A stretch of 64,000 nucleotides of DNA from Tulasnella sp. 424 (Eukaryota > Basidiomycota > Agaricomycetes > Cantharellales > Tulasnellaceae), in the NCBI GenBank assembly GCA_019633425.1, contig WSUB01000004.1, positions 62,001 to 126,000 of the forward strand, given 5' to 3'. Under the pieces are notes generated by a model. That model was given only the letters and a program-made list of their open reading frames with translations. It had not been told where the DNA came from and ran no database searches. Of the stretch, positions 7,233 to 60,584 are shown piece after piece. Position numbers and translations under genes: made by a program. The number at the start of each line of letters is the position of its first letter. Position 1 is the first letter of the stretch.

Positions 7233-9482
7233 AGTTGTGTTCGAGTTTATTCGAAGAGTGAAGTTCTCTGATATTCCAGCTGTGTCGAGCAACCGGGCTG
7301 TTGTGATGCTTGAACTAGCAGAGCTCAGTTACAACTGCATATATTTATATCCCAGTGGCACTTGGCGCTACCATAGTTGGGAGCGAGGTAGATAGATCCA
7401 CCCGTGGGACCTGACCAAAGATACCGGACGACTCTTACCTATGAGTCGCACTCCGAAATCTTCCGACTCAAACGAGTATCAATCCTCCCCGATGCGATTG
7501 AGGTAGGCGAGTTCCGTCTCCCATTGCTTGCTCATCGTCAATAGAAGCGAATTACGAATTCGGCCTCGATCGCACGCAAAACTCAGGGTGCCGCGAAGCG
7601 GCGACCCACGTATGGGGAATATTCACCTGTATCCATTAGCGAGCGGCGTTCTCTAGCTATGTAGTCTCGCGAGAATCGCTTTGCAACTCATATAATGGAA
7701 CGAGGACCATCAGCCATTCCTCATAGTATTGGTCCGCTAGCTTTTTTGACCGTGCTGACACAAGTGCCGACGAGGGTCCTGCTAACCCCGTGACAACGTC
7801 ACTAGGGCTGGACCGCCGACCACGGAAGGAGGATCTGGGACCGAAGCCTGGGGAAGCGAGCGCTTCGTTCGAAGGGGGGGGGGGGGAGCGGATCCGAGCG
7901 AGAGGATGAAGAAGCACATTGCCAAGCAAAGTCTAGGTTTTCATACTTGTGTACATTTCTGAAGATGTCTCGGTCGAACATCAACAGAAACAGTTTCTAC
8001 CAAACCAAAAGATTTACTTACGCTCGCTTGCTTTGTATTTCCCTCGTTTGCGTCAGTCGTCTCAATCAATCGGACGTCACGGTGGTTCTTGCCACGAATG
8101 TCTTAACTGCAGGGTGGACAAAGAAGCGATCCACTTAGATAGAATTTGAAGTTTCCCTCTCTTGCTCTCCAAGCGGACAATAATCTCATCTCTCTAGCCT
8201 CGGCAAAGTCATGATATCGTGATACATTGTGCCCGACCTCGACAGGTGGGCGAAGCATTACAGAGGTGTCCCGTTTCCTTGAGGTTCTCGGTTGGTGGCT
8301 TGGGCTTGCCTATCACTGCAACATTTGCACCAGAAGCGCCATAGACCTTTGAGCTGGTGCTAGGCTCGTCGATGTTTTGTGATCCGACCGAGCTAGGGAG
8401 AGAAGGAGGGGCTCAGTCAAAAATCAATGTTAAGGAAGGATGAAATCACTTCACTCGCGCTTAAGCGAATACAGGTGTAAGGTGGGGCTGCGAGGATTAA
8501 TGCAAAACTGTAGTGATTACGCAGGCGAAGGGCGGTTGGGGAAGGTAAAGGGATAACACCCGCGGGTCTCATATTCAACCAGGTGAGGTTGCTTTTGAGA
8601 CGGAGGTTCGTTGCTGAACCCCCTTGCCACGACACCGAACGGAACGGTGGTTCGATACCTTACCTTTTATTCCACTCTAAAGATGCACTAAGAAATTATG
8701 TGTGGTGGAGGTTGGCATGATAGGAACAACCCTGTCCCAGACATGGATGTCTCGAAAGCCGCTGAAGGCGCTCTTTGGGCTTCTCCAATGGCTTCACCTC
8801 CAACTAGTTGCCACTAGGTAATCAGGCTCTTGGGGAATTGTAATCCTTTTTAGTAAAGGTTCAATGTACTGCACTTGTCTCGGAGCTTTAGGGCGTTCAA
8901 GTGTATGATCCAGAAGTCGCGGGTCGAGGAGCCGCCAAAGGCCAAACTGGGAAATCAACAGCGTGGGGTCGACATAAACAACCAGATATTGTTGAATGGA
9001 ATGAAGGGTAATCCGTCTTATAACTCCGCGATATTTCTCGCTTAACCGACTAATCGGGAGAGAGGTGACTGTTGGTTTCAAAATCTTAATTATACGGGTC
9101 CGCGCGAGAGCGGGCTGGGCTGATTCGTTCCTTACGTTTTCCCCCAAGCTTTCGGAATTAAAGAAGGTTTTCAACGTCGACGCCAGAACCACAGAACCCA
9201 GGAACTCCACAACTCGTGACAAGCCAGACTTTCCGCGCCAACACAAAATGACAACAAAGTACGATAACTATCAACCGATAGATACGGTATATATACGCCG
9301 AAGGATAAACAAACAAGTAAACAGATGCCGCGACTGAGAAGGGAGTAAGAAAAGGCGGGAGAAAAGGCAAAAGATGTATGTCACCATTGGAACGTGCTGG
9401 TGACCTGCCCAAGCAAGCGCCGAGAAGAGAAAGGAAAGGATGTAAAAAGTAAAGGAACCAGATCCTATAATCCAGGGTATGA
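7233..9482. other. intergenic, no gene recognised
   Basis: This separates the MACPF-like gene from paralogue 3. A poly-G run of more than ten bases lies near 7876. A minus-strand open frame at 8794-9246 has protein-like composition but no ATG. Nothing else could be supported. Confidence 0.4.
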
Positions 9483-11095: not shown

Positions 11096-11403
11096 TTCTG
11101 CTGTTTGAAAGGAAGGGAAGGGGGTGTGAGATGTGGGTTGGAAAGGAAGGTGGTGGATTGGAGGAGCTCTCTGAGACTCTTTGAGCTGTCGTGCGAGAAG
11201 AGAAGTTCCCAAAAGGGTTGCAACGGTCACATGGACTTCGGTCGGAGTTAAGGTTGCTGTTTACCGTTGTTTGTCCCTCCGACTGCCACCGCATCCTCGT
11301 CAACACCGGTACACTTGCCTTTTTTCCTTTCATCAACCACTGGAGCTGGATCTCCTATACGCTAGTACCTTCACTTCTTTGTATTCCAACTAATCATCCA
11401 ACC

Positions 11404-42017: not shown

Positions 42018-42193
42018 CAAGGGAGGCAGAAGCGTTTCGTCCCTCACAGACCAAGCACATCTTGTCACCTCCCTTGACTCCTAAACCTTCTTGATAACGC
42101 TCGCGTCTCGACACGCAACTACGCGTGAGTCCGTGTTCGACACGGTCTATGCACCTACTGACTTTGGGGCGTCAGCTGTGATATCGTTGCAGA

Positions 42194-42423
42194 ATGCTTC
42201 TATACAATAAGAATCTCACCTTTCAACAGTACCAGGATCCTCAATAGTGAGTCTCATACTCGTGCTTTCACCAACACGTCGGACTTGGTTTGAGTAACCA
42301 TCGTGCTTTTCCGACGAACACAGTCGACCTAGCCTTGCTCACGACAGCCCGAGAAATTTCGCGAGAACAACCGACCCTGTGGTCAAGGTTGACCAACCGG
42401 AACTTCCGGTTCAAGGCAGATGA
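42194..42423 (+). CDS. micro-gene copy 1 (50 aa, two exons), family of unknown function
   Basis: Exon 1 (42194-42246) starts MLLYNKNLTF and ends at a GTGAGT donor; exon 2 (42324-42423) begins after CACAG and stops at TGA. The junction closes in frame. The C-terminal half, NFARTTDPVVKVDQPELP, matches the family motif (aromatic-x-x-x-x-D-x-V-V-K-V-D-x-P). A probable 5' untranslated intron (donor near 42126, acceptor TTGCAG just before the ATG) fits the other copies. There is no signal peptide, membrane segment, CaaX end or Cys framework. Function unknown. Support comes from parallel gene structure in copy 2, where exon 1 also has exactly 53 nt. Confidence 0.55.
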
Positions 42424-44246
42424 ATGTCGTCGTACCAGAGGTTGCTGTGAAGGAATATCTCCTGTACTCCTAGACTACTTCTTTCATATGTTGCCATACA
42501 ATCATAGTCCTTGCTTGAACGCACTGCATCAGGTTGATTGGTATCAGCCCGAAAGCGCACTAGTACTGAATCGAAGGCGGCTTTCTCCTCGAACTTGAGC
42601 AGAGACGTGGCAAGACTTTCACCAATAGGCGGTCGACGTCTTAGACTGCACATGCCCGGTTGTAACGGCTATGCAGATGGGATGGAAAAGCAATCGCTTA
42701 TACCCATTAGGCTTATCTGTGCTTTGGTGACGCCAGGCAAGTCAGATGGGTAACCTTAAGAGCTTCCATTCAGAACCTTCCGTCTCGTGCCTTGGCGATC
42801 GGTACGGAGACCACTATGTACTACTTTAACTCCCCTTTGACTTAATTCTCCTCCTTCCGATTTCATGAATCCAGGTCGCGGTACATGCATGTTTAACTCG
42901 GCACAACAACTCTGGGTGTACTGTACATATAAAGTTCGGCTGTCTTCTGTCGGGTGGTTGCGTTGCTATGTTGGCGGACAAAGTTCCTGGCGTGTCTCTT
43001 GTATGGTTACGTCGCACCAGCATTCATCGCCTAAGAGAGCTCACATGCGATGGATTACACAACGAACCTACCACGCTCACAAGTTGTTATCAGCCTGACA
43101 CCGGGAGACTAGGTTTTTATTCTGTGTCTCCGTCTCACAGCATAATTTTTGATTTTAGGCACTGGATGAAACATCGAGCAGAGATGTCCGAACATCTAGA
43201 GCCAATCAATGAAATAGCCTTATGTTATTTTATAGAAATATCCCCCAGTACGTAGAGACGCTCTCATCAACACCATCCTCGAAGGCATGTGTCTCATTTA
43301 GATATCACATCCAGGGCCGTAAAGGGCCCCATCGCCGCTCCGCCTTCAGCAGAGTAACCTGATACCCTCAACTAGGACGTGTGAAGAATTTGATTAATTG
43401 GTGTTGCAATGGGAACTGCGACACACCTTTGGCTGTTGCCATGAGGCAACCGTCTTCAACTGGGCGAGACCTTAGAAATTCAGCCCACACCACTAGCGTA
43501 AAGTATATCAATAGCTTCAAAACTTTGTTTGTGGAGTCATTAACTGAATCTGGATGCTAAGGCCATGCCTGCAACGGTGCGGTGCGTTGAAGTCGCTTCC
43601 TCGCCGTTTCCCTGGAAATACCGAGCCGGCAAAACTGCCAATCATACGTCGTCGCGCCTTCTTCCCCCCTTAAGTGTTCTTCGACTACCCAGATCTACTG
43701 ACACGGGTTCGAACGCGGAACAAGGGAAGTGGAAGGTGAGTGAAAGAGGCTCTTGTCCCAGACCAGGTCCCACCCAAATCACTGCCTAAATTATGACAAG
43801 TCCCGGATTTATGGAGTGCAATATGATATTGGGTACGAGCACTGTTCACAGGCATAGAAGATGGTATAGGAGTGCATGAGACACCCGCACAGGTGTTCAA
43901 CTGTGGAGCTCGGCAGACCGCAGAGAAGTTACCATTGATATCAATGATATTATCAGAGAAAGGAAGCAGACACATTGAATGATGTAGAGTAGTCTGAGCA
44001 ACGGCAAAGTTTATGGAAATGCCTTACAAGCGTTGAACGCGCCAGGTCACTGGGTTATTGCCGTCCAATCATCTTTCGATGGCAAGAGGTCAGCAGGTCA
44101 CGAGTGCGTTCAGCACTTGAGCTTTCCCACCCATTTCTTCCTCTTACAGCATTTTGATACTGCGTCGGCATCTCGTGATCCCAAAGCGAAGGAACTCTCG
44201 TGCTAGAACCACTGTCACCTGTCTCGGAGTCGACGAGACCTTCGAG

Positions 44247-44254
44247 TATAAATA
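44247..44254 (+). promoter_or_regulatory. TATA box of micro-gene 4
   Basis: A perfect TATAAATA lies 226 bp before the ATG of the 44.5 kb copy. Confidence 0.65.
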
Positions 44255-44472
44255 CAGCACCTCAGGCTGCTACGTGATATGTCAACCAGTCTTATCTACC
44301 ACCATACTTTCATCTATCCGAGCTGCTCCATCTTACCCATCCGACTCCAGGTAATTCGTGGGCTGGCTTTTTTCCCCCGGGTTTGTCAGGATATGTGAGC
44401 ATTGACCACTCTCCGCGTTAGGTTTCGCTAGCTAGAAGGAATCAATAACATCGGCGCATTATATTCGTGACA

Positions 44473-44648
44473 ATGACTCGGTGAGTGAATGCGGCTGGAT
44501 AGCATATGCGCGGATGACGAGGCTGAGACGCTTTCCGAATACCCGGCGTATCAGTGACCTCAGCAATGGCACCAAGAACTACGGTGCTTCTGAAGACAAT
44601 ACCGTCAAAGTCCAGGAACCGAGTTCAGCAAATGAGAATTCTACGTGA
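44473..44648 (+). CDS. micro-gene copy 4 type (33 aa, two exons)
   Basis: Exon 1 is only 8 nt (44473-44480, ATG ACT CG) before a GTGAGT donor. Exon 2 (44555-44648, 94 nt) starts DLSNGTKNYGASEDNTVKV and ends ANENST-stop. Copy 5 at 48844 has the same intron length (74 nt) and the same exon-2 length. An alternative acceptor nine bases downstream also stays in frame. The tiny first exon makes the start the weakest part of the call. Function unknown. Confidence 0.5.
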
Positions 44649-45565
44649 GAGGAGGAAACGGAGAGGACCTTGAACACTAGTCCAATTGCAAGATAGTCCG
44701 GTGCTTAGGTGGCTCCAGTCCGCTTCCGAAGTTGCGCGGAGCCGGAGGAAGTGGAAACCGCGGTTATATTCAGTGTCTATATCTCGATAACATATTCTCC
44801 CAAACTATGTTGTTTGTTTCGGCTTCATTGGGGCGGGGATTAAGACAGACGGGTCGACCCGGCAAATTCAAGTCTACGAGACCAAAACTATGTGGTTTCC
44901 CTGAGAAGGTCCTCTCCAAAGCTTCGAATTTGATGCCAGAAAGTAAATCGGTGTTCGAATCAACGCGTCGGTAGATTAGGTCTCGGGGCTGGGCTGAATC
45001 AAAAACGCAATTAAAAATAGACACGAGGCAGCCATAAGCTAAGGAACAAAGGAGGCAAGAGATAAAACATAATTGAGCCGAATTTTAAAAGTGGACTTGA
45101 TCCAGTCGGTTGAGAAGGCGGAGTAGGTCTAACCGGCGTGTGGACAAAGTGAAAGACACAGGATTAAGTCTACGAGTTGGGAATACTGTCCTTAAACATG
45201 CTGACAATCGGCGGGTCGGTGATGCCGCTCCATCAGGGGAGACTTCAGGTGAGTGTGGTCCAGCTAAGAACGTGCCATCGATGTGTAAGGAAATAAGGGG
45301 AAAGCCGAGTGATAAAATAGGTCACGAATAGATTGACCACGTAGTACTTTCTTCAAATATCCAACGAGGGGAAGGAACCCGTCGAAATCGTAGTACCGAG
45401 ATGGGTCAGGTCGTCTCGGAGGTGCACCGGTGACGTCATCGGTCGATATGAACGTGCCTGAACGGACAACTCCGCTTCACGTGAGGTCCGGGTCCTGCGG
45501 AAGAGACTGAGTGTAGGTTCGTTAGATATGTATACCGATCATCCTCCCTATTACCAATCGCATCA

Positions 45566-45790
45566 TGTATCGTTCTTCTACTACCTATAACAGGTACGTG
45601 TTCCCTGTAGCTACGCCGCTTGTCCGCGTTATCAACGGACCCCTGACGCTAAATGGCACGTTTCCCCCCTTTGTATCATCAGGATGATCGTTGCCCTTAT
45701 CTTAGGTCAGCCGACGTATAGTCCGCACCATCAAACTGCCGTATTAACCTTGGTATTCCACGGAGAGCGAATAATCCCCCTTTCATTTTG
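45566..45790 (+). pseudogene. ERV14 3'-end fragment (exons 5-tail, 6 and 7)
   Basis: The sequence aligns with 40900-41110: TCGTTCTTCTACTACCTATA for the end of exon 5, GATGATCGTTGCCCTTATCTTAGGTC for exon 6 and its donor, and GGAGAGCGAATAATCC for exon 7. The exon 6 frame gains TAG at its end and the acceptor of exon 7 has changed from ACAG to ACGG. No upstream exons are present, so it cannot encode a cornichon. Confidence 0.9.
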
Positions 45791-46808
45791 CCTATTGTAT
45801 TAGAACGGAGCGGGCATGTTACGATATTTCACAAGTAGATCTAGACTGTGCGGGAACTGTAATCCTTCTTCCCAAAGCCTCCTGGATTGGGGCGACGACC
45901 TGGGCAGCTTCCCACTCATACAACGGTACCGAGCGCCACATTAAAGCCATGTTCGCTGAAATAAGATTGACCATTTGTCCGCCACTCGTGCTGTATGTAC
46001 CCAGTGCTTTACTTCCAAGACTAGCGTGTTGGGGATATCTCTCACCTGGGCTCATTCACCGTTGTAGCCCCCTGTACGCTGAATGGGCTCCCGTCCATCG
46101 GCAGTCGATACCGGCAACCAGCGAATGGGACATTCACGAAAAGGTATGCACATGTTATCCCCACCGAGGTTGCATGGTAAGCTGCTAAACCCCTTGGGGA
46201 GATTTGGCGGGATTGTGGCGCTATGAGTCGCACGCGTACGGAACACTTCCGATGGGTTCGAGAACCGCGCTTCGGCCCGAACTTATTGAGCCCGGTGAAG
46301 AGGTCCACAACATGTTTCCGCATATCCCACTCGGTGGGAACGTAGTACGATTCGGCTTTTAGCGAAGTTGGCTACACATTTGTCATATCAAGGTTCTAGT
46401 GCTTACATCCACATGAATTAGCTCAGGGGCGCGCCGACTTCATTTAGAAGTTGAGGTGATAGATCTTCCAACAAGGATACATGCCGTACCGGTGACATGC
46501 CTCTCGTCACTATCATTAGCGACGGTAGGCATTGCAATGACGAACGCCGATGGGGTTTAGCTTGTTAAGTCAAAGCCTTGAGGGCGATTAGGTGCGCCAT
46601 CGGCGAATACCAGTTCAGCTACTGGCGTACTTATGAGAAGGCCGAGGCATTTCGTCCTCAATAACCAAGCACTTCTTGTCACCTACCCCAACTCCTTTCC
46701 CTTCTTGCCAACGCTCGCGTCCCAACGTGCAACTAGTAGTGAGTCCGCGTTCGACATGGTGCATGCACGGACTTACGTTGGCGCCCTTAGCTGCGATATC
46801 ATTTCATA

Positions 46809-47058
46809 ATGGTTCTTAGCAGCGATCATCTCACCCTTCAACAGCAGCATGGTCTTCGATGGTGAGTCTCGTATTCCCGCTTGCGCGAACATGGCGAACG
46901 TAGTTCGAATGACCATCGTTGCTCTCTCCAGCGACCACTGCCGCCATAGCCTTGCTCAAGAGATTGCCAACACCCCGGCAAATTTTGGGGGAAGCAACGA
47001 CACTGTGATCAAGGTCGACAAACCGGAACCCTCTGATGTGGAGGTTGAAGGTAAATGA
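46809..47058 (+). CDS. micro-gene copy 2 (59 aa, two exons)
   Basis: Exon 1 (46809-46861, 53 nt) starts MVLSSDHLTLQQQ. After a GTGAGT...CCAG intron, exon 2 (46932-47058) reads DHCRHSLAQEIANTPANF, then the motif NDTVIKVDKPEPSD and ends EVEGK-stop. It is the positional partner of copy 1, with an identical exon-1 length and stop context. The TATA box has decayed to TACTTATGA near 46629, and the acceptor of the 5' untranslated intron seems lost (CAT in place of CAG). It may be weakly or no longer expressed. Function unknown. Confidence 0.5.
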
Positions 47059-48628
47059 ATGCCGTGGTGTTGTTGCAGAAAATGTACTCCACGAATCCCT
47101 TTCATACAATGTTATTGCCTGCCTGGATACAGCACGCAAGGTTCATGAAATCATTTTGATAGGGACACTAGAATACTTCCCCTCAAACTCGAGTCCAGAC
47201 ACAGGAGACTTTCACTAATTGACGGTCGAAGCCCTTGACATGCACGCGTTCAGTTGTGACAGCTTTGCGGACAGGACGAAGATCCCAACGCTTAGACCCA
47301 TTAGGCATATCTGTTCCTACGCAACGTCAGGCAAGTCAGCTGGGTCGCACTAAAGCTTCCATGAAGAACCTCCTATGTCCTCGAGTCGTGCCCTTGCAGG
47401 TAAATGGCTGGTGCGTCGCATTAACTCCCCTTGACTCAAATCGCCCACGTGCTCTTTCATGAATCCAGCTCGCGGCACATGTATGGTACCCTTATCATAT
47501 CAAGACTATTTTTTCGGGTGCATATCAAGTTCGGTTTTCTCCGCTTCTTCTGCGTTGCTGTGTTAGTAGATAAACTTGTGGGCTGTTCCTCGTACGCCAC
47601 TCATACAGCTCCATTGCACCGAGCCGTTATCCACGGCGTAAGCGAATCCAGAGGCCACGGTCTACACGGACAAATTCGCAGTACAGCCTCTCAGTCTGAC
47701 GAAGAATTGTTGATCTGACAGCAGTGAGGACTCAGTGGTGGAAGATCAGGCAGAGAACTTCGAACTATCAGATCCAGAGCAGACGAAGCAAACAGTCCCA
47801 CATTACTTTATGGAAGTCTGATTCGGCGTGTAGAGACGCTGTCGTCAGAACATCCATGAAGATATGTTTGCCCCATTTGGGCATTTAGGACTTTATAGAT
47901 GACTCGGACCCCCGTCGCCGCTCCACCCTCAACAGAATAACCCGATATACGGAACCGGAAGATGTGAAAACTTTGATTATTCGACGCTGAAATTGGCGTG
48001 GCGGCAATCTACGGGCTTTTGTTGAGATGCATCATGCCCGACCTGAATTATGTGAGACCTTGGGAATTAAGGTTACTCAACTAGCGTAAAGCAAAATCAA
48101 CAGCTTTAAACCATTTCTTGGCGGCCTACCAACTTGAATACGAAGTTGAGGCCACGGCTGCAGCAGTGGCAGTGCGTTAAAGCCGCTTCCTCGCCGTTTC
48201 CTTGGAAATTCCGAGTCGGCAAAATCGCTAATGATACGTCTCGTCTCCTTCCCCCTATGGTGTTCTTGAACTGTCCAGATTTTTGGACACCATTTCGAAC
48301 GCCAAATGAGGGAAGTGGAAGCTGAATGAAGGAGGCTCTTGTCTCAGAGCAGGTCCTTCGCCAATTACTACTTAAATTATGACAGCTCCAATTTTACAGA
48401 ACGCAATATTATGGTGGAAATGCCTTACGAAGGTTGAATGCGACAGGTCGCGTGGTCATTGCCATCTTCTCCCGAGAGGTCACGAGCGCGTTAAGAATTT
48501 GCACTTTCTCGCCACTTTCTCCTCCCACAGCCATTCTGATATTGTTCAATCATCTCGCGCTCCCAAAGCGAGAGGACTCTCATGCTGGAACTACTGTCAC
48601 CTGTGTCAGAGTCCCCGAGACCTGCGGG

Positions 48629-48636
48629 TATAAATA
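48629..48636 (+). promoter_or_regulatory. TATA box of micro-gene 5
   Basis: TATAAATA lies 215 bp before the ATG, in the same position and context as that of the 44.5 kb copy. Confidence 0.65.
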
Positions 48637-48843
48637 CTTCACCTACTACGTGATATATCGACCAGTCCTATCTACCATCATACTTTTATCCTTCTAACCC
48701 AGCCGCTCGATCTTACTCGTTCAATCCCAGGTAATTCGTGGTCTTCTTTCTCCTCCGGATGTGTTAGAACGAGTAAGCCTTGACCGCTCCCCCAGTAGGT
48801 TTTGCAAGCCAAGAGATATCAATAACAAAGGCGAGATATATTC

Positions 48844-49025
48844 ATGGCAATGACCTGGTGGGTAGACACTGCTGAATGGCTTATGTGAGGATGACGAGGC
48901 TGAGACACTTCCCGGTCACCCGGCGTACCAGCGACCTCAGCGATAGCACCAAGAACTATGGCGCTGCCCAGGACAATACTGTCAAAGTCAAAGGGTCGAG
49001 CTCGGCGAATGGGAGCTCTAAATGA
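48844..49025 (+). CDS. micro-gene copy 5 (35 aa, two exons)
   Basis: Exon 1 (48844-48857) encodes MAMT plus two bases before a GTGGGT donor. Exon 2 (48932-49025, 94 nt) reads DLSDSTKNYGAAQDNTVKV and ends ANGSSK-stop. The frame is kept relative to its partner at 44473. Function unknown. Confidence 0.55.
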
Positions 49026-49174
49026 GAGGAGGAATGGAGACGACCTTGAATGCTATTTCAAGATGGTCGAGTCCGGCAAATTTAAGTCTACAAGACCAAA
49101 ACTATATGCTTTCCCCGAGAACGTGTTCTTAGAAGTTTTGAATTTGATGTGAGAGACACTGGGAAGATGTGACC

Positions 49175-49346
49175 TTTCTCGCTGGCGTGTGGCGAAAAAC
49201 GAGTTGGCGCTATTTTCGCCTTTCACCTTTCGCACCGTTTCCGCCATTGCGAAAACCTGGTTTCATTTTCGCCACCCTTCCGAGCAATCGAACAAAAGAG
49301 CGAAAGGTGTCATAATATCAGCATTTCCGCCAGCAGAAATTGCGAC
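49175..49346. mobile_element. MITE-like 172-bp insertion
   Basis: This block is present in unit II but absent at the equivalent point of unit I (near 44940). It is bounded by GTGACC on both sides (49169-49174 and 49347-49352), a possible 6-bp target-site duplication. Its ends are roughly inverted (TTTCTCGCTGGCG on the left; CGCCAGCAGAAA near the right). Inside, GCGAAAA and TTTTCGCC recur in opposite orientations. It encodes nothing. Confidence 0.5.
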
Positions 49347-50740
49347 GTGACCCCGGTGGAAGTATTCGTGTTCGAGTCAACGCCACTTCGGTGAAGTCGC
49401 CCATGTTGGATTATATCTCTCGGGGCAGTTCTGAACCTAGAAACCCAATAAAAATTCGATACGAGGGAATCATCGACAGGGACCAAAGGAGGCAAGGGAT
49501 GAAGCAAACTTGAGCCGAAATTTCGAAAGTGGATGAAAATCAAAGGAGCCTCTACCGAACTCGATTGAATGAGTTGGGAAGGCGGGTAGGTCTAATCAGG
49601 GTGTGAACTTAAAGTGCAAGTTTCTAGAACAATAAGCCTAGAGTCGGTAAAGTTGTCCTTGAGCACGCAGGTGATCGGCGGGGGTCGATGCTTGACGATG
49701 ATCATGATGCCGATTCATCAGGCGGAGCTTCAGGTGAGTTCGTTCCAGCCAAGAGTGTGTCACCAATTCGTAAGAAAAGGACGAGAAAGCTGGTAGAAAC
49801 GAGTGCTAAAACAGGTCAGGAATAGAGTACGTACCTTCTTTGGAGATCGAGCGAGGGGAACGATGATATCATCAGACTGAGACGGAGGTCGGATCTTTCC
49901 GGACCATCAAGTCGTTTGCGGTATACGACAGGTACCCCCTTGATCCAGCATCCTCCAGTTGTTTCTGTGGCCCCGACTGCAACAAAAACGTGATACACTG
50001 TCGTGGGGGTCATATCATCTACTTATTCGTCGCATGTCTTATGCGGCTTGGGTTATAGGACCGAGGTGCCGACTGCGGTGAAGTTTTGGAGTGTTCATCC
50101 CCGACTATAGAGCTGGCCATCCTCGCACGACAGTGGATTCAATACTGTTTGATTACCAAAGTAGGTGGCTAGTAATTAGAAACGGGACTTTTTGGGAGGA
50201 CGGAAATCTGCGTGTCCTGGACGAAGAATCTCAGGCTTGAAGCCTCACAACTGGGCTCTGTTGCGTCAGCTGCTAGACAATTTGGGGACTTACAGGAGCG
50301 GTATTCGGTGGCATAGATAGTTGTTCGCTTTTCCTCTTGGGGATTCGCGCCCCGCTTCCCTAGAACTAGCCAACCCGACAACGGCCTCCGGGTGGCAGCA
50401 TGCATACCTCATGTTTTTTTTTTGGCGGATGCCCGTTTCTAACAGCGCAAAACTGTTCTTGAGCTAGCCAAGTTAATTGCTAATATGTAATCCCGCGGTC
50501 TATGTCATTGTGCCCATATAAATAATTTGACAACGAAGGCTGGCCGTGCAGCGATCTTCATTTGCCCGTTGGGACAAATAGCCGATGTTGACGTCGATGA
50601 GACCGTGTGTAGCCACATGCCCCTCTCTTCCTTTATGGCTGCGCATATTGATGTTAGTATGTTGATGGAGTTTACATGGCCCAGGCAAAGGCCGAATGGC
50701 GCTAAGTTGCAGGTGTGGTGGAGACAGGCTCTCGCGTCTT

Positions 50741-50746
50741 TATACA
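50741..50746 (+). promoter_or_regulatory. TATA-like element of micro-gene 3
   Basis: TTTATACA in CGTCTTTATACAGAG resembles the element of copy 1 and is 170 bp before the position of the lost start codon. Confidence 0.4.
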
Positions 50747-50910
50747 GAGAAAACATCAGTACTTCGGGCGTAAATTAGCAGGCCCAAATCGTTAGCTCTT
50801 GAATATAATACTCGCGCCTAAAAGTACTGTTAGAAGTGAGCCCTGAGTTCGGCATCGCCCCCTCCTTTATCATACTTACATGAGCACCTCATTCCGCAGC
50901 TCGTGTTAGA

Positions 50911-51184
50911 CTGCCTATTATCAATAAGGACCTTAGCTCTCGACAACATACTCCTCATAGGTGAGGTTCATGCTAAGGCTTAGAGAATGCGTCGAATGCC
51001 AACACTCAAGCGCTGTTTGTGGTTTTTCGGCAATCTCCGCAGGCCTAGTCCCGCCCTCGGAAGCCCTGACGCCCCGAAGCTTTATGGTACAAGAAACGAC
51101 TCCGCGGTCAAGATTGACGAGCCCAATGCGTTTGATGAGAATTCCGAAGTCATGCGCCGGTCGTCGTGCCTGACCGGCGGCTGA
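50911..51184 (+). pseudogene. micro-gene copy 3, start codon lost
   Basis: The exon-1 equivalent (50911-50960) reads INKDLSSRQHTPH before a GTGAGG donor, but the ATG position is CTG and no in-frame ATG lies between it and an upstream TGA. Exon 2 (51043-51184) reads RPSPALGSPDAPKLYG, then the motif NDSAVKIDEP and a longer tail ending SCLTGG. Apart from the start, splicing and frame are intact. It could be a pseudogene, or use a non-ATG start. Confidence 0.55.
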
Positions 51185-52922
51185 GTGTGGAAGCATGAAT
51201 GTAACCGCGGGGTCGTGCGACGGATTGTTACCGCTTCCTTCCCCTCATGTCTTCAGGCAGTGCCATTGTATATTCTATTATGAGAACCAAGTTGATCTCG
51301 GCTGGCCGGCGTCGTAATTCGCAATTCATGCATTCCGGTACATCGTGTGAGGTATCCCCCCGTCAAGCGCGAGGACGATTAATTACCACAGGAGCGCTCA
51401 TAGATGTCGCGTTTGGTTGTATGACAAACCAACACCGGCTGGGAGCCGGACGCTTCTACTCATAAGGTTTGCCCATGCTTCTGTGAAGTTGGGCTAGTAG
51501 GACGGTAGCCATGGAAAAAACCCCATCAGGAACGTTTCATCTCGTGCCTTGGCGAAAAGCGGTCTTAACAGCGTTAACCCCCTCTTGACTCGATCCGCTC
51601 CCTCTGGTTTACACGATTCTGCTTTCGCGGCACACACATGTCAGCCGCGCGATGCAAGCTCCGTTTCACCGGGTATCTCCAACTGTCTCCATTCTGTTAT
51701 CAATTGGAGCCCCAACATGGTCTAGCTTCGGAAACTTTCATGCGTGCTAGCCCCATTCCCTTCGGAAATATCCTGCACAATGGCATAGCAAAACTGGCAT
51801 TCGCTGACTACGCTAGTGTCGGATGGGAATAGCTAAACTGACGCAGCGGGAGGCCCAGCGGAAGTATTTGAGGCCATCGAATTTAGCGCCAGTCAAGTAC
51901 AATATTGCAATACGACATCACTCGTGATTAATTGCTTATTTTTTTCGAACATACTTTTATTATGCGAGTGATCGCCATTCAACTTTGGCATCCACAATCA
52001 CGCGCAGCGTTGTACAACCCGACCCTTCTCATCATGTTATCCAACGCGAGTAACCATATACGACTGGAGTTAACCCTTGCGATATTTCCACGTCTTGATT
52101 CCTAAGCGGCAACCTCTCTTAGTTCTTTAGCTGGGAACAGCTGAGCATAAGCTTTTCGATGATGTGTCGTTCTACAACTAGGACCATGACATAGCTGTTA
52201 AATCGACGATGCATTGGATAGATTAGCTTGAAGAGTCTATATGCTCATAGGGGGTCGGTGCGTTCACATCGCTCGTCCGCACTTTCCTTGGGAATAGGCG
52301 GCGAAATTCATTCCCAAGGGGGATACAACCTGCAGCGACGTCACACCGGATCTCAGAGCTTCCCTTCTACTTAATTACCTACCAAACCCTTTCTGTGGAA
52401 GTCTAGATTAGATATTGGCTAAATGGGAGCAGAAGAGATAGGTTAGCCTTCCCTCTGCCGCGACGATTCTCAAGAGCTTAATTGCGATAGGTCCCGAATT
52501 TCTGGCTCTGGATTGAGCATAAATGGGCGAAGAGAGTCTTAATTAGAGAAGACTCTGTTCATGTTCAAGTGGCTCTCGTATCCAGCTTCCCGTGTATCGT
52601 TTCCAGTGAGCGAAGACAACCAAAGGATAGGCTCGGCTCAAATGAGGCAGAAGCTGTCAGCGTTAAGAGTGATGTGGGATAGCTAGGAAATCGAATACCC
52701 CTCATATGAGCGAAGAGATCACATGCAGGTGGGGGGCGGGTTACCAACTACCATATCAGGTGCTGGCTAGAAGTCGGGTTCGTCACAAGTGCATTATATC
52801 TTGGAGCTTCTCTCACAATGAGAGACCCATGACCTCCTAATGAGCTTTGATCCGTTTCCTCTGACTAAGGGCGAGATATCTAGCCAGATAAAGACCCCGT
52901 TGAGTTTCTCAACCCTGTCGGC

Positions 52923-52931
52923 TATATATAA
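52923..52931 (+). promoter_or_regulatory. TATA box of micro-gene 6
   Basis: TATATATAA lies 201 bp before the ATG of the copy at 53124. Confidence 0.6.
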
Positions 52932-53123
52932 AACAGGTTGAGGTATCGTCCTGCCTCCCCCTCAGAGCCTCCGATTATATCCTCGTATCCTCTTCCTTCG
53001 GTCTGCAAGGACTTGTGCAGAACTCAGACAATTTGTGAGGTCCATTCCAGACAGCGATGTTGGTCGAACCTGATGGTTTCCTCCCCGTAGATCTCGCCAC
53101 CCAATTAAAACGAGCATAGAAAA

Positions 53124-53339
53124 ATGTGCAAAGGTGTTAGAAATACTATTCTGTAGGTCTAATTGTGTCTTCATTAAAAATTCAGAGGGTATCAAGGCTC
53201 TGATGACACGTTTGGGGTCCGTGGTTATAGCGCTAGTCACTTCAAGGAGCCCGGCAGTGAAGAAAAGAACTATGGAGCACCAGACGATAAGACTGTGAAG
53301 GTCGAAGAACTTCCTTCGACCGGTGAGAGTCCCAATTGA
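53124..53339 (+). CDS. micro-gene copy 6 (43 aa, two exons)
   Basis: Exon 1 (53124-53152, 29 nt) encodes MCKGVRNTI. Exon 2 (53237-53339, 103 nt) reads HFKEPGSEEKNYGAPDDKT and VKVEELPSTGESPN-stop. The 29-nt first exon is the same length as in copies 7 and 8. Other acceptors upstream (TATAG, or AATTCAG with a 33-nt intron) would also stay in frame, so the exact junction is uncertain. Function unknown. Confidence 0.55.
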
Positions 53340-55593
53340 CATAGAGAAAGTTGTCTTTGCAATGTTGTCGGTGCCCATTTACGATGTCGTTTTGGGCTCC
53401 GTTTGGTGAAGAGATGCTCTCCAGATATCCGCTTCGAATATAAAACCAGATTCGATTTACGTAAAGCCATGCGTGACTGAACCAGCTATGTGTTGTGAGT
53501 ATTTGGCTGGTTTGGTAGCAAGGGCCAAGGCCCACTAGACGTTAGACGTCAATACCTCTCACAAAGATCAGGCCAGGGACACAAGAGCCTTGGCTGAATA
53601 CAATTTGCTGGAGTTATCGGCGACGTTCAAACATGGCTATCCATTTGCCGCACGCTGCTTTTTGTGCCCTATTAGAGAGGCAGGAGTGTTACCCTGCACC
53701 AGAGATCCCGTCCGAGTCTATCACCCTCTTGAAGAGCGATTCCGATGGAAATTTTACTCAGTTATTGATAAGGCAGTGGGGAGTGATACCAGTCTTGATC
53801 CGCTATGCGGAGGCTGTGGGAGAAAGAGGTTGTCCGTCCCTGAAACTGTGCAGTCATCCGTGGGTCGGTGCGAACCACAAAGTGAGCGGGGAACGGACTC
53901 TAACTAAATGTGGACCTATCAGACCACTGAGGTCACCATGAGCCGCCGGGAGTCGTTTAGCGAATAGGTGATATCCGTTTGAACTAATAGCATCCTCTCC
54001 TTTCATAATCGACTTTTCGTCTAAACTCCCAAGAGTATGATTCACTCAAAGACGAAGGTTCCATATTCGAGGAGGGCCCAAACCGTTGCTAAGAGAGTAG
54101 GGTTCTTGGGGAATCGAATGGTTGGAGATGTCCATGTTTGCCGTCCGCATTGGTCGGACTTCGGGCCGCTTGGCCGAGAATGAGCTCGCTCCCACGGACC
54201 CCATAATCACAACATTCCCAAACCGTCCACCCTGCCTTTCTCCCGATTGGTGGGTTAAGCGAGAAATATCGCTGAGGCCATAAGACGGAACACTCTTCGT
54301 TCATGGAAGAACGTTTGATTGTTGATATTTCTGGGAGCGTCAAGGGAGCTGTTGATTCTCGAATTGGGCCGTCGGCGGCTCCTCGCTGCGGCTCCCTCAT
54401 ACGCTTACCTTGAACCGTAGCTTGAGGCCTACGATCCTAAGTGTCACTTGGGTGAACTGAGGTGAAGGAAACCCGATCTCCTATCGCCTTCAGCCATCCA
54501 TATGCTCATACATGCCTGCTCGGCTCAGCTTCAGTCGGCGACCGCCAATCCGCATACTCCAACACGAAGTCGAGCTCAAGTGTTATCTTACGAGGTATTC
54601 AGCAAGCTAATTGATAGGTCTTTTCACCACTTGGACACCCTTTAATGGTCCGGGAAGAAGGATAGACTTGCATGGAGCGGCTGTCTTTTGGCCGATGTTC
54701 ACAACAACTCTAATCGGAAATGGCAATACTGGTTGTGATTGATCTGATGCGACGCGGGTTTGTAACCGTGTGAGTTCGTGGTTGCTGTCAGTCGGGATCG
54801 CGCTTTACGTAGTGGTAACCAAGCGCGGAACGTAAGTAGTATATGAAGCGGGCCCCGGAGGGCCGCTAAATAGTAAAAATCGTACCAGTATTTCTCTTTC
54901 CTTATATGGGGTACGCAGGAAGAAGATTACAGCCGGACCGCAATTTCCTGAACGGATAAGGTCTTTCCTCACAGAAGCTTCCGTGAGTTGTGCTGGGCTC
55001 TTGAGAACGTTCTGGCCAGAGAATACCACCATGAGGTAGAGCTTCAAGTTGCTTTGACTGTGAAATTCGACTACATCCTCCTCCCTCCTGTCAGCTGTCG
55101 CTTAAACCGTCTTGCTCGTACTAGAAGAAGTCGACTCCTAAAAGAGAGGAAGATTGATGCGAACCGAGGACGCAGTCCCCGGAGGAAGGGCGTTGGGCCG
55201 GACAATGTTCAAGGCCTGCAGAAACCCTTGGTTACAATGAGGATTCCCTCTTCTTGACCTCCTGGTTGCCTAGAAGGGGGTTTCCTCGGTCGATCGCCTG
55301 TGCCATGCTTGCCGCGATCCCCAATACTATCCCATGTTGAAACATGTAGTGACTCAACACCTGTCTCGTTCTATATTGAACAACCGTAATCAATAGCGAT
55401 TCCAGCCTGGTATAAGACGGATAGGTTACATCTATCCCTCTCCTCCAGCACAACCGCTACTATCGTGTTCCACACCTCATTACTCGACTGATCTACACCG
55501 TAGAACAGGTGAAGTGGTTTCATCACAACCCCCTCATCGGTTATACCTTACCTTTTCCATGTTAGAGAAACTATCGCAAACCAACTTGACCAT
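53340..55593. other. diverged array spacer, no gene recognised
   Basis: Several open frames occur (for instance plus 53590-53940 and minus 54089-54400), but none shows splice-supported continuation or a known domain. A TATA-like TATAAGAC at 55411 serves copy 7. Confidence 0.45.
55411..55418 (+). promoter_or_regulatory. TATA-like element of micro-gene 7
   Basis: TATAAGAC lies 183 bp before the ATG of copy 7, matching the spacing of the other copies. Confidence 0.45.
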
Positions 55594-55791
55594 ATGCATC
55601 GCAAGTGGCAACCAGTCTACCCGTGAGTTTCGTTTGTCGGAGCATGAAGGTTAATGAGGGACTTATCATGTTTTGGACGGCGAAGTACTCGCGTCCGTCA
55701 GCTCAGTGCTGGCCCAAAAAACTGCGGAGCTGCCAGTAATGGTGTTGCCGTTGTCGACAAGCCTAAACCGCCAACAGGAAGTTCCAAATAA
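55594..55791 (+). CDS. micro-gene copy 7 (37 aa, two exons)
   Basis: Exon 1 (55594-55622) encodes MHRKWQPVY before a GTGAGT donor. Exon 2 (55707-55791, 85 nt) reads AGPKNCGAASNGVAVVDKP and ends PPTGSSK-stop. Copy 8 has the same exon lengths (29 and 85 nt). Between the two second exons, six codons differ only silently at the third base while the intron sequences have drifted much further, the pattern expected of a translated gene. There is no signal peptide, membrane segment or CaaX end. The peptide family is not one I recognise; a short regulatory or precursor peptide is possible. Confidence 0.7.
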
Positions 55792-58021
55792 GACGGACTG
55801 CTAGGTGGAACACGGAGCGTGGCAGGACGGCCTTACAACGGCTGAAAGGCCCGCTATAATTTTATTTGTCCTTTTTGCTTAATGGGTTAAGGAAAAGGCA
55901 TTTCTGCTCAGCGACTGCCCCAATTTCTCGATCCACGACGTAGCCGGGGGAGGAATATTGGCGGCAAAGTACGAGATTCGGGGCATACTGAAGCAGTCGA
56001 GAGACCCGGTTGACCCTTGGCCGAGTCGGCTAATCATAAGTGTTTCGGCCTGGACGGGAGCTCTGCGACGAAGCGGCGAGAAGGGACCATGCGAGTGGAG
56101 TGGTTATTTGCCGACTCTCGACGTCGAATGGATCCTCGTGCGTTCGCTCTGAGACACACGGATAGGGTTTTTCCAAATTCCTCCGATCATTAGTGGCAGT
56201 TCAAAGGTCCATGGAACCTCGAACAATAGTGTTGTAATCGTTGAAAGTCCCAAACAATCGGGATTCTTGGGTAGACGATCGACTACCACGCGTCAAAGGG
56301 TGTCGTGGAAAGAAGATTCGGGGCATTCAAGCTCAGTGGTGCTGAACGGGATAACTCCGACTGTGGATCTTTGATTTTGACGGGAAACGAGATGAAAAGT
56401 TGGTTAACTGGGCTGTAAACTGCCACCGAAAAGTTTGACAGTGAGGATCGGCGCTTCGGGTTGGCACGAACTCGATGGCGGAGCGAAAGCCAGAGAACGA
56501 GCTACCGAGTGGTTCATTTTGGCCTTTCGCTAGATCAGGCCGAGAAATATGTGCGACTGTCTTAGATTTTTGTGCTTGTCAGATCCGCAAGAGTGCGCCG
56601 GGAACGGAGTGGTAGTCGTGTAGGCTCGTCTCTTCTTTCCACGTCGAAGACCGAGTTCGACGCCACATTTGACTCCCACGCCATTCAACTACATGGAAAG
56701 GCCCAAGTCTAGCGCGATCCCTCCGGAAGCCAAATTATGTTCGTGGGAAATCAGGCAAGCTGACGAACACAAGGTTCCGTCCCTTAATTATCTACTATAA
56801 TTCTCCTGACTGAAATCTATATAGGCATCGGCTAAATGGGAGCAGAAGGGAAGAGCAGGTTCTCGACTTGCATAAGTCTGTGGCGTCTAGTATTCGAATT
56901 CGTGTGGTGACACCAGTGAAGTAAATTGTGGTGTCTTAACACTTCGTCTTCAAGCTGTGAGCTCTACACAATTGAACGCGGATCTAAGCTTTGGCCTGCG
57001 ACCGCTAGTATCCGCATACCGATATGGACTCTGTTCCGAGTGTCAATTGACGAGAAGAGTAGGGACCGACGGGGGCGGAGATACGTCGGCCATTTTTCTA
57101 CTGGCTCCGGGTAACCGTGGAACCATTGACTGCTCATTCGTAGTTGAGATGTGAATGCGATGCGGGTTTACGAAAGAGTTCAAACTCATGTGTAACAAGG
57201 GGGGCGAGGCGGCCGTTGAGGTTCGTTCACAATCGTACAAGGTTTTCCTTACCTTTGGATGCGGTTAAACGGTCGTCACAGAGATCGCCGAAGGTCGTGG
57301 GTGGTGAAAGACTGTCGTGTTCTGTACAGAAACACTCACGAACTGTATCGTCGTGGAGTATACCTTATTTCTTCTTCAATCGAATGTGTGTTACAAGCTT
57401 GCATGATGTGCAAATCACCCGCATGCTCCTTCCTTTCAGAAATTTTCTGCTATCGAGCATTAGGAACATCGTAATCGTGAAAGGTGCGGGTACCAAAGAG
57501 CAATGCTTGACGGCGATCGGGTGCGTAATCCATGAGTTGGACCGAACCCGACGGTAGTCCGGTAGACCCCTCCAAAACATTTTGCCGCCGAGGTTATAAT
57601 TCTCAAATCTGCGGCAACTCCAAAAAAGAAGTCAAGAAGTCGAGGGGCAGGGTTCTCGGACACCAACAGGTGAACCCGAGGTCCTCCGACTTGGAGGTCT
57701 TCGTCGAACCTCAACTCCCTCAATATTGTGTTATACCTTAGCATTGGGTACCGACTCAGAGCGTTGTTTCGTTCTACATCGAAGTTATCTAATGACAGCG
57801 ATCCTGCCCCAGCCAAACTCACCCGGCGGGATAAAAGCCCATAGGTTTCATCCATCGACACTCCTCCTTCAGCCCAATCGTCCCTGTCTTGCGCTAGCCT
57901 TAACTTCACGACCCATACGCACTCTATAGCTGTGAGGTGATTTCGTCGTGAATTCCTCATTGGTTATGCCTTACCTCTTTGATATCATAGCTCGTTCCCA
58001 TTCGCGCAACAACTCGACAGT
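55792..58021. other. array spacer, no gene recognised
   Basis: The 56430-56500 stretch matches 58715-58780 (GAGCGAAAGCCAG), and ATCGGCTAAATGGGAGCAGAAG near 56825 matches 52415 in unit III. A minus-strand open frame at 57460-57960 shares a weak peptide similarity with one at 55232-55453, but this may simply mirror the DNA duplication. Confidence 0.45.
57830..57837 (+). promoter_or_regulatory. TATA-like element of micro-gene 8
   Basis: GATAAAAG lies 192 bp before the ATG of copy 8. Confidence 0.5.
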
Positions 58022-58231
58022 ATGCACGGCAAGTGGCAACCCATCTCCCAGTGAGTTTGATTTGGTAAACGTAGAGGGTAACAAGAGGCTTATGGTACTG
58101 GGGACTGGTTCCTCCCGGCATATAGTACACGCGTCGCTCAGCTTAGCACCGGCCCAAAGAACTGCGGGGCTTCTAGTAATGCCGTTGCCGTTGTCGACAA
58201 ACCAAAACCGCCAACGGAAAATTCCAAGTGA
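58022..58231 (+). CDS. micro-gene copy 8 (37 aa, two exons)
   Basis: Exon 1 (58022-58050) encodes MHGKWQPIS, donor GTGAGT. Exon 2 (58147-58231) reads TGPKNCGASSNAVAVVDKP and ends PPTENSK-stop. It is the closest relative of copy 7 and keeps the same exon sizes, junction phase and stop position. A likely untranslated first exon ends at a GTGAGG donor near 57932, with an acceptor ATCATAG near 57990. Function unknown. Confidence 0.7.
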
Positions 58232-59125
58232 TATGTCCAGAAGATGGAGCCCCGAGAGCCTGCAGCGGCTGTGCGCGGTCCCATGGAATTAGAACGGCGT
58301 ATTTATATAAATGCTTCTGTCCTTTTTGTTTGACGGGTTCAAAAAGAGCCATTTCGGCCGAAGAATTGATCGCATTTCGTGGCCATATGTCGCGGGCAGA
58401 AAGGGTTAAAAAAGCAGATCCGGTGAAGTAACCGGATCCGGAGCACGAAACACGATCGACAGTTACGACCAATCAGAAGTGTTTCCGCCTCAGTAGGAGA
58501 GTTTCAGCGAAGCGAAATGAGGTGAAGCAAAGGGACATGAGAGAAAGACAGCTAGCCGCCGATCCTCGACGTCGAGGCGTTCGTCCTTCGATTACACGGG
58601 TAGGGATTCGGTCGGGTCCCCGGCCGATGCGGCAGTGGATCTTCGTTTCGGAGAGAGTAAGTGAGTATTTTGCGTCGATAATGTAGTTAAATTTGCTGTA
58701 GCACTTGAATCGAAAAGCTCGATGTTGAGGATTGATACTTCCGGTAGGCGTGAGGTCGATGACTGAGCGAAAGCCAGGAAAATAAACCAGAGACCCGGAC
58801 GGTTCCGTCTTGGTCGGACATGAGGTGGAAAAAGATATGTGAATTCGCCCCCTTCAGATTCCTATGCCAACACGACAAGTCGACTCCCGAGAGTGCGCCT
58901 GAGCGAGGCAGCTAGAAGAGTGATGCCAGTGGTTGCCGGATGTTGTCCTTACTTCCCACGTAGAAAACGAGGTTGACGCCACATTTGAGTCCCACGATTG
59001 TACCACATGGAAAGGGGCAACTTCGGCGCGGCTTCCACATCGGCACCCGACTGACCACAAGTACTTTGAAAGGACCTCCACGTCGACCTTCTACGTTTCC
59101 GTTTCTACCAACCCCTCCAGGCAGG

Positions 59126-60584
59126 ATGAACGAACTAACTGAAGCCGACTACGCCCAAGCTCGAAAAGATGCTGCTGAGGAGACGAAAGATCTTCCACGG
59201 AGGCGAGATGCACTTGGGCGGATGGTGCCGGAGAAAAAGGCCAACAAGCCGTATTTCGTGTAAGTCGAATGGAATCGACCAATAACGCGGCAGGGATTTG
59301 CAACAAAACCCGTAAAGATTTTGGATGCTCACACTAGCTTGGGCGGGGCGTTGTAGGTACCAAGACTACAAAAGAAAGCAAGCTGAACAGGAGGCGGCCA
59401 AAGCCGAACGACAGAGAATTCGAGCTGAGAAGATCGCACGTGGAGAGGAAGTGGGACCTGATCCGGATGAGAAGAAGCCTTCTGCTGCTGGAACTTTCAT
59501 CAAGATCTTCATCTTGGGTCTCTTGATGACGCTGTATGCGGGGTACTTTGTCACGGGAGATCCGTGGTGGGGGTATGAGAATAAGTGGTTGACAGTGAGG
59601 CATTGGGCTTCGCTTATTCCCGTATGTCCTCCTAGAGGCCCTCTCGAGCTTCCGTACCTGATTCTTCTTCTGCCTTGGTGGGTGGTTACCGTAGGATGGA
59701 ACTCAGAAGATGTACACCGAGTCTATGTTGGCGAAATACGACGGTACTGACCCTGAAAAGCCCGTTTTACTTGCTGTGAGTTCTAACCCTTGAAGTGCAT
59801 ATACTGGTTTTGCGTTTCGATGGTCAACTAAATGATCTGGACTTGTAGATCGACGGTATCGTGTACGATGTGTCGGAAGGTCGGCGGACTTATGGTCCCG
59901 GAGGAAGTCAGTTACAGTCTTCGCCAAGCCCCTTCGCACCGCTGAATATGCTAACGATTCTCCATTTTCATCTCATCGCCCCTTACCCCTTTTCTGTGTT
60001 GGATCTATTCTTGGACGCACCCGATAGGCTACCACCAATTCGCAGGACGAGACGCTGCTCGAGCCTTCGTGACAGGATGCTTCAGAGAACATCTTACACA
60101 CGATATTCGAGGGTTCGGGGAGAATGAGATCAAGGTGAGAATTTTGCCCTCCACCTATATCCTGACTTGTGCACTGCGGCACACATCGGTGCAACCGGTA
60201 TCGTTCTTCCCTCCCGAGACACCCATCTGACTGACCGAACTTCTTTACTTCCCCCCCTTGGCCGCGAATTCTTTGATCACCCTGCTTTCAACTTCTCGCC
60301 GATGGTCGGGACCCAAACCCTCCTATTCTGGCAAACTCACGGGATGGGTGGCGAAAAAATAGTCGCTAAACAAGTGGCGTAAATTTTATGCGGAGCACCA
60401 GACCTATAAGCGGGTCGGAACGGTGTATCATCCCCCAATCCACCCGAGTACGCCCATCCCTCCTCCCTGTGACGGTAGCAAGCCACAAAAGGACGAGACA
60501 CCCCAAGTGGGCCCGCAACTACCGCCGGCCGCCCCGAACCCTGACCGAAAGCCCAAGAAAACGGAGCCCAAGAAGGAACTGTAG
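59126..60584 (+). CDS. membrane-associated cytochrome-b5-like heme-binding protein (MAPR family)
   Basis: Six exons: 59126-59259, 59357-59621, 59707-59775, 59849-59906, 60028-60134 and 60363-60584. The N-terminal half is charged and coiled-coil-like (QAEQEAAKAERQRIRAEKI). One membrane segment follows (FIKIFILGLLMTLYAGYFV). The C-terminal cytochrome b5-like domain has KMYTESMLAKYDGTDPEKP, AIDGIVYDVSEGRRTYGPGG and, after splicing, SYHQFAGRDAARAFVTG with the Tyr residues that bind heme in this family. The tail is Pro/Lys-rich and ends KKEL. MAPR proteins (yeast Dap1, human PGRMC1) support P450 enzymes in sterol synthesis at the ER. The join into exon 6 (acceptor AATAG at 60360) is the least certain. 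Confidence 0.88.

Follow-up and report, generated by a model that had tools for sequence, protein, structure and literature searches.

Basidiomycete CaaX pheromone precursors are encoded by small, multi-copy genes located beside STE3 receptor genes, and lineage-restricted (orphan) tandem families combine tandem growth with fast divergence and the lack of a known domain. Precursors of the MSDIN family (Amanita cyclic-peptide precursors) usually start with MSDIN and end with Leu-Cys, and an intron interrupts their fourth-last codon (PMC5159998). Each KEP (KEX2-processed repeat protein) holds multiple peptide cores separated by KEX2 sites (PMC9769878). Further hallmarks are a dedicated prolyl oligopeptidase B for MSDIN precursors and an N-terminal signal peptide for KEPs.

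The micro-genes described here lie in a 64,000-nucleotide stretch of the Tulasnella sp. 424 genome (the window), where eight plus-strand copies stand between ERV14/cornichon and a cytochrome-b5-like gene (the latter read by eye). Like basidiomycete pheromone precursors they are small and multi-copy, but none of the ten peptides or fragments that we now recognise has a CaaX end, in agreement with a preliminary description of the locus. The likeness to MSDIN genes is that of short, multi-copy mushroom genes, often clustered, that carry an intron inside their coding region and escape automatic annotation (PMC5159998); in the micro-genes, however, the intron is early, in phase 2, after codons 2-17 and far from the end, an MSDIN-type start is found in none of the eight peptides, and none ends in Leu-Cys. 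KEPs are likewise Agaricomycete peptide genes, with little known of their function (PMC9769878), but each micro-gene has a single core, and dibasic sites are absent from A1, A2, B and C. Tandem growth, fast divergence and the lack of a known domain are shared with orphan tandem families; unlike such families generally, the micro-genes keep a fixed promoter-leader arrangement, intron phase and 13-residue core while the rest diverges.

Layout of the array and gene models

The eight copies begin where the preliminary description placed them, but its spacing of about 2.0-2.5 kb does not reflect a simple repeat: three A+B units (42194/44473, 46809/48844 and 50911/53124) are followed by a C pair (55594 and 58022). 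The first two units are tandem repeats, U1 (40897 to about 45500) and U2 (45566-49863), each starting in ERV14 3′-end sequence, original or duplicated; they lie about 4.6 kb apart and are 68% identical over aligned columns. The third, diverged unit (50259..53341) is recognised from collinear profile matches separated by gaps without matches. Identity between U1 and U2 peaks in the ERV14 3′-end copy (80-89%) rather than in the micro-genes, so noncoding forces also preserve sequence here. In the C1-C2 comparison, alignment runs at 62-76% across the gene and at 33-66% over most of the spacer.

A coding model of two exons joined in phase 2, as first proposed, fits all eight copies, the coding exons being between 8 and 142 nt long. 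A1 (42194..42423; exons 42194-42246 and 42324-42423, intron 42247-42323; 50 aa) is preceded by a leader intron (42125-42192) and a TATA-like box at 42013. A2 (46809..47058; exons 46809-46861 and 46932-47058, intron 46862-46931; 59 aa) has a leader intron at 46739-46790 and no TATA-like match. A3 (50911..51184; exons 50911-50960 and 51043-51184, intron 50961-51042; leader intron 50836-50909, TATA-like box 50740) has CTG at the position homologous to the ATG of A1 and A2 and runs to 63 codons, outside the 33-59 aa range first given, which does hold for the other seven copies.

In the B branch, B1 (44473..44648; exons 44473-44480 and 44555-44648, intron 44481-44554) is predicted to encode 33 aa downstream of a leader intron at 44351-44421 and a TATA-like box at 44247. 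B2 (48844..49025; exons 48844-48857 and 48932-49025, intron 48858-48931; leader intron 48731-48798, TATA-like box 48629) has a second in-frame ATG at 48850, giving a product of 35 or 33 aa. B3 (53124..53339; exons 53124-53152 and 53258-53339, intron 53153-53257; leader intron 53035-53090, TATA-like box 52923-52927; 36 aa) has the least certain exon 1 among the models. B1 and B2 are also open without a coding intron from ATGs at 44514 and 48891, and an intron of only 41 nt (33 in B3) can be drawn; both models were rejected because five of the six differences in this stretch would hit residue-changing codons and because an intron of 74 nt (105 nt in B3) can be fitted with a CAG acceptor. The longer-intron model is provisionally preferred.

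The C genes are both predicted to encode 37 aa: C1 (55594..55791; exons 55594-55622 and 55707-55791, intron 55623-55706) follows a leader intron at 55509-55565 and a TATA-like box at 55411, and C2 (58022..58231; exons 58022-58050 and 58147-58231, intron 58051-58146) follows a leader intron at 57932-57990 and a TATA-like box at 57831.

Two further copies had been missed, bringing the total to ten. E1 (56194..56374, plus strand; E 0.0023) consists of a last exon only, with its phase-2 acceptor kept and no identified exon 1. D1 is inverted (8209..8359, minus strand), a last exon with C-related leader DNA upstream; it lacks a TATA-like match, and no ATG lies between the leader donor (8454) and the last exon. 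Both are apparently decayed copies. The models of A3, D1 and E1 contain no in-frame ATG, and the history of the ten copies reads as one of birth and death.

A TATA-like box about 100 nt upstream of the leader-intron donor accompanies seven of the eight copies, against 7 among 837 ATGs elsewhere on the plus strand, in a scan whose TATA and donor patterns were derived from these same copies. We also looked for a shared regulatory motif before this box: cross-branch 7-mers reach 4 of 8 copies within 200 bases and 5 of 8 within 400, and 100 random sets reach up to 5 and 6, respectively. AGGGG, present in seven copies at 400 bases, has a background frequency of 0.50 and was judged too weak.

Peptide features, coding constraint and kinship

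The last exon consists of a 13-residue core, whose end reads hydrophobic-x-hydrophobic, and a polar tail. The C-terminal motif as originally written matches none of the eight peptides literally; a looser pattern, written after viewing the peptides, places the core with fixed spacing in all ten copies. A hydropathy scan found no hydrophobic N-terminal start, and [KR]R, a dibasic Kex2-type site, is present only in A3 and E1. A literal SUMO-interaction-like pattern occurs at the core end of A1, A2, C1, C2, D1 and E1 but is missing from the three B copies and the A3 core; we do not claim this reading.

When two paralog alignments were scanned in all six frames, the last exon of the micro-gene came top in both: that of B ranks first of 140 open runs (p 0.0007) and that of C first of 63 (p 0.0003), each p being that of the best of many windows. 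In frame, dN/dS is 0.095 for B1-B2 (shuffle p 0.0002) and 0.149 for C1-C2 (p 0.0014); the other two frames give 1.2 to 4.3, and third-position bias is seen in a single frame only. Synonymous differences are plentiful (pS 0.67 and 0.48, respectively), and B3 shows constraint in the core. From these codon patterns, the B and C branches, two of the three, look to be under natural selection on the encoded protein. For the A branch the evidence is mixed. A1-A2 looks neutral (dN/dS 0.96 whole, 1.96 in exon 1, 1.13 in the core), and the older A3 comparisons are ambiguous: A1-A3 and A2-A3 appear constrained (p 0.017 and 0.001) on a protein-guided alignment, which favours low nonsynonymous counts, but on the ungapped core both give 0.57 (p 0.23 and 0.28) and constraint is not shown. 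The in-frame conservation that the preliminary description had proposed as a check in related species, assessed here between paralogs, is thus found in the B and C pairs and not in A1-A2.

The branches are related to one another to differing degrees. With an A-only peptide profile, B1 ranks first after the profile's own three members (E 8.3e-5, 2382 ORFs). The links from the other sides are weak: the best cross-branch match of the B-only profile is A3 (0.049), and the C-only profile finds D1 (9.2e-8) and then A2 (0.062). At the DNA level, the C profile matches the B1 last exon (E 7e-4). The paralog comparisons support the earlier view of a small-protein family expanded by tandem duplication and now diverging.

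All five peptide queries found nothing beyond the window in the 46.8-Mb genome, and they missed known cross-branch paralogs too. The sole relatives are an A-like sequence, P0001 (to A2), and a B-like one, P0002 (to B2), from one 9,499-base contig. As first described, the micro-genes fall in no known family: no relative was found in Pfam, NCBIfam (three of the eight peptides) or PDB (one alignment), and sub-threshold Pfam matches at E up to 5 (Tcp10_C 0.06, Gram_pos_anchor 0.28) were taken as chance. One family-alignment search yielded 86 candidates but no match at E ≤ 10, and was insensitive, since it did not return P0001 and P0002 either. Scanning IMG/VR for the C type returned 21 pattern matches, of which none was confirmed, and in the literature we recognised nothing as describing this family, a weak negative.

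What the micro-genes may be

The micro-genes are probably an overlooked protein family, and their products probably leaderless intracellular micropeptides. We give about an even chance to the fuller reading of a real spliced micro-gene family, confined to this locus as far as our searches reach, grown in tandem under birth-and-death turnover. Sequence tests indicate a layout of TATA-like box, leader intron, start-codon exon, phase-2 intron and last exon with core and tail, along with the constraint on the B and C proteins; each intact gene would yield a 33-59-residue protein that stays in the cytosol or nucleus, as we infer from the missing hydrophobic start, CaaX end and (A1, A2, B, C) dibasic site. 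Less surely, and from composition, the protein may be mostly unfolded with a core that docks on a protein partner, and the variable first exon and tail might set specificity or dose.

The near-neutral A1-A2 pair, the CTG start of A3, the lack of a TATA-like match in A2 and of exon 1 in D1 and E1 would also suit a dying family of former micropeptide genes, with most or all copies now pseudogenes and with a remnant of earlier constraint as the source of the signal in B and C. We regard this as possible but unlikely: B1, B2, B3, C1 and C2 retain open frames, splice sites and TATA-like boxes, and the pS values of the B and C pairs are too high for constraint that ended long ago. That the copies are spliced noncoding RNAs or conserved regulatory DNA, with short open frames by chance, seems improbable. 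Between U1 and U2, promoters and leaders are 68-85% conserved, on a par with the 70-81% of coding exons, and conservation in certain spacer blocks is as high as 85%, but the third-position bias is confined to one frame, phase 2 is preserved in all copies including the acceptor of E1, and the window has no Rfam match at gathering score. Nor was a tRNA found.

A constant C-terminal core behind a variable first exon, in a small, multi-copy family, recalls precursors of ribosomal peptide products, in which enzymes would cut and modify the variable N-terminal part and the conserved C-terminal part would be the recognition sequence. The lack of MSDIN-type starts in all eight peptides and of dibasic sites in A1, A2, B and C speaks against this, as does a Pfam search of 17 ORF pieces of the window, which found no peptide-modifying enzyme family (the peptidases are M28 and S28), and we consider it decidedly improbable. 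Very unlikely indeed is a secreted signal or pheromone family: the genes are tandem and small with short products, and the genome does contain STE3-type receptors, but both a CaaX end and a hydrophobic start are absent, and all 15 STE3 matches fall on four other contigs (C399, C391, C47 and C257), none on the array's contig (C334).

Within the favoured reading of an intracellular protein family, a more ambitious and rather improbable idea is a novel class of fungal intracellular micropeptides, in which a tandem bank with a constant docking core and differing N-terminal exons would supply a modest set of variant or competing regulators, all acting on a single cellular partner. Gene finders readily overlook genes of such small size, whose coding exons here measure 8 to 142 nt, and the locus suggests that a whole family can hide within 18 kb of DNA that would be taken for empty. 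As a good test case, it also lets micro-genes be recognised from the codon statistics of paralogs, the arrangement of promoters and the phase of introns, with no recourse to transcripts. Should the peptides be produced, they would constitute an unrecorded fungal micropeptide family, whose partner could be sought by an ordinary pull-down.

Gene models and copies

The array is flanked on its left by a cornichon/ERV14 gene (PF03311, E 3.3e-15) and on its right by a gene from about 59127 that, read by eye, would encode a Dap1/MAPR-type cytochrome-b5-like protein; the sole ORF piece of the latter scanned (59316-59750) gave no Pfam family above the cut-off. The contig, C334, has 714,483 bases (the window being bases 62001-126000) in an assembly of 46.85 Mb and 448 contigs, and the 15 STE3-family matches returned by a genome search fall on four other contigs. 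A genome with several STE3 loci and with genes rich in introns is in keeping with a basidiomycete.

All eight plus-strand micro-genes (A1 at 42194, B1 at 44473, A2 at 46809, B2 at 48844, A3 at 50911, B3 at 53124, C1 at 55594 and C2 at 58022, the letters denoting branches) fit one model: a leader intron of 52–74 nt, a start codon, which in A3 is CTG, then a phase-2 intron (70–105 nt) and a last exon. The two coding exons and phase-2 junction of the preliminary description are thus borne out in every copy. Seven copies have a TATA-like box 96–112 nt before the leader donor; nothing in A2 matched the patterns applied. As the leader donors were hand-picked, the arrangement was also tested by rule: 7 of the 8 starts pass, versus 7 of 837 other plus-strand ATGs (4 of these among the 195 array ATGs), and the seven others trace to three promoter-like places. 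Since the copies themselves supplied the patterns, this test amounts to a check of consistency that also yields a background rate; it is no independent discovery. No copy has an ATG between leader acceptor and start, a single ATG occurs in the final 75 nt of the B1 leader, and no shared upstream motif rose above chance.

Although all eight copies first described at the locus fit, the set was incomplete. A genome search with C2 found an inverted copy, D1 (8359-8209, minus strand; E 0.008, reciprocal C2 match 0.0013), and a profile of eleven core peptides (the eight copies, D1 and the database relatives P0001 and P0002) found E1 (56194-56374, plus strand; E 0.0023 among 2382 ORFs from the window and L012). 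Both retain the phase-2 acceptor and the core. The leader DNA of D1 is related to that of C (E 8.7e-5); D1 has no TATA-like match and no ATG from leader donor to last exon. Peptide queries of the genome with A2, C2, B1, D1 and B3 (A1, A3, B2, C1 and E1 were left out) all matched inside the window only, at E up to 10, in searches that were insensitive: A2 missed A1 and A3, and B1 missed B3. A DNA query with A1 matched only itself.

Near D1, minus-strand ORF pieces at 5340-7328 carry a fungal MACPF-like domain (PF22693, E 6.1e-14) and DUF5648 (PF18885, E 1.8e-12). Two minus-strand cysteine-rich ORF groups with Thr-rich tails (2209-3740 and 9271-11260) look by eye like tandem paralogs; the only piece scanned (2209-3012) matched no Pfam family. 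Three minus-strand ORF groups within 28559-33838 (28559-29635, which contains a run of N, 30986-31735 and 33155-33838) are alike by eye, apparently a further local tandem family, and neither of the two pieces scanned matched Pfam. GC skew is strong (-0.328) in the 2-kb bin 20001-22000, unlike other bins; this bin overlaps a Ser-rich open frame (20568-21749).

Repeat units and duplication history

Self-comparison revealed two tandem units, U1 (40897 to about 45500) and U2 (45566-49863), each comprising an A gene and a B gene and starting in the ERV14 3′ end or its copy, with 68% identity over 4163 aligned columns. A U1/U2 DNA profile placed a third A+B unit at 50259-53341, in collinear order with gaps; beyond it lie two C genes, at 55.6 and 58.0 kb. 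Scored in 60-nt bins, U1–U2 identity is 70–81% in coding exons, 68–85% in promoters and leaders and 28–85% in the remaining spacer, peaking at 80–89% in the ERV14 3′-end copy. That copy (45566-45850, at the start of U2) matches the original at 80–89% along some 240 nt, a conservation higher than that of the micro-genes, and by eye its last acceptor is altered; gene conversion or a retained terminator could explain its conservation.

C1 and C2 are 62–76% identical across the gene and 33–66% in most spacer bins, with one block at 85%. An 82%-identical block pairs 56635-56701, downstream of C1, with 58952-59015, after C2 and just before the cytochrome-b5-like gene, and the C duplication seems to extend to the promoter of that gene. 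An inverted block, 74% identical, ties array spacer (54235-54385) to DNA upstream of D1 (9065-8925), which makes an origin of D1 within the array probable.

Kinship and coding constraint

Profiles of single branches differ in how well they reach the others, the links from B alone and from C alone being weak: outside A, the A-only profile ranks B1 top (8.3e-5), then C2 (0.024) and B2 (0.038); the B-only profile finds A3 (0.049), then D1 (0.23); and the C-only profile finds D1 (9.2e-8), then A2 (0.062). A C DNA profile matches the B1 last exon (E 7e-4). The C-terminal motif originally proposed, taken literally, matches none of the copies; a core of exactly 13 residues, its pattern composed after seeing the copies, is common to 10 of 10.

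When open runs were ranked by synonymous excess in a six-frame scan of the U1–U2 and C1–C2 alignments, 1st place went to the last exon of B among 140 runs (p 0.0007) and to that of C among 63 (p 0.0003); these p values are the best of many windows and become about 0.1 and 0.02, respectively, when corrected by run number alone. What persuades us is that the predicted exon came first in two separate alignments. With the refined models, dN/dS is 0.095 for B1–B2 (33 codons, shuffle p 0.0002) and 0.149 for C1–C2 (37 codons, p 0.0014), and the B1–B3 and B2–B3 cores give p 0.0002 and 0.007; in the other two frames, the B exons give ratios of 1.2 and 1.8 and the C exons 4.3 and 1.2. The earlier, short-intron B model had given 0.178 for B1–B2 (p 0.002) and p 0.053 for B2–B3. 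For A1–A2, the ratio is 0.96 overall (p 0.53; exon 1 1.96, core 1.13). Pairs with A3 depend on the alignment: A1–A3 (p 0.017) and A2–A3 (p 0.001) are significant on protein-guided alignments, whereas the ungapped core gives 0.57 for each, not significant. In-frame conservation between paralogs thus holds for B and C and is mixed for A. From these comparisons B and C are probably coding; for A, we would suggest only tentatively a past constraint, since relaxed. A3, D1 and E1 have lost parts.

Relatives and predicted product

The eight-peptide alignment, searched against about 5.8 billion predicted proteins, returned two: P0001 (A2-like, E 6.1e-12) and P0002 (B2-like, E 5.7e-7). Both come from a single source and from contigs of 9,499 bases, apparently one and the same. 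Compared with A2 read likewise, P0001 carries five exon changes and two more in the intron read-through. A related genome therefore has at least one A-like and at least one B-like copy. The absence of further relatives from this database carries little information, as spliced fungal genes are apparently few there. The initial view that the family is unknown stands for Pfam (eight peptides, those of B in the earlier model), NCBIfam (three peptides), PDB and IMG/VR, none of which gave a relative.

The eight peptides have GRAVY values of -0.64 to -1.32 and at most two cysteines each; hydropathy and site scans found neither a hydrophobic start nor a CaaX box, and dibasic [KR]R occurs in A3 and E1 only. 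Together these properties favour a predicted product that is soluble and intracellular, has no leader and is probably unfolded. The fixed core, ending hydrophobic-x-hydrophobic, may serve as a linear docking element. In general, TATA-like promoters point to regulated expression, which those found here would suggest for these genes, but the upstream regions share no motif beyond chance.

We conclude that the locus carries a genuine micro-gene family that has been overlooked. Tandem orphan small-protein genes are a known kind; the family itself is absent from the libraries searched.
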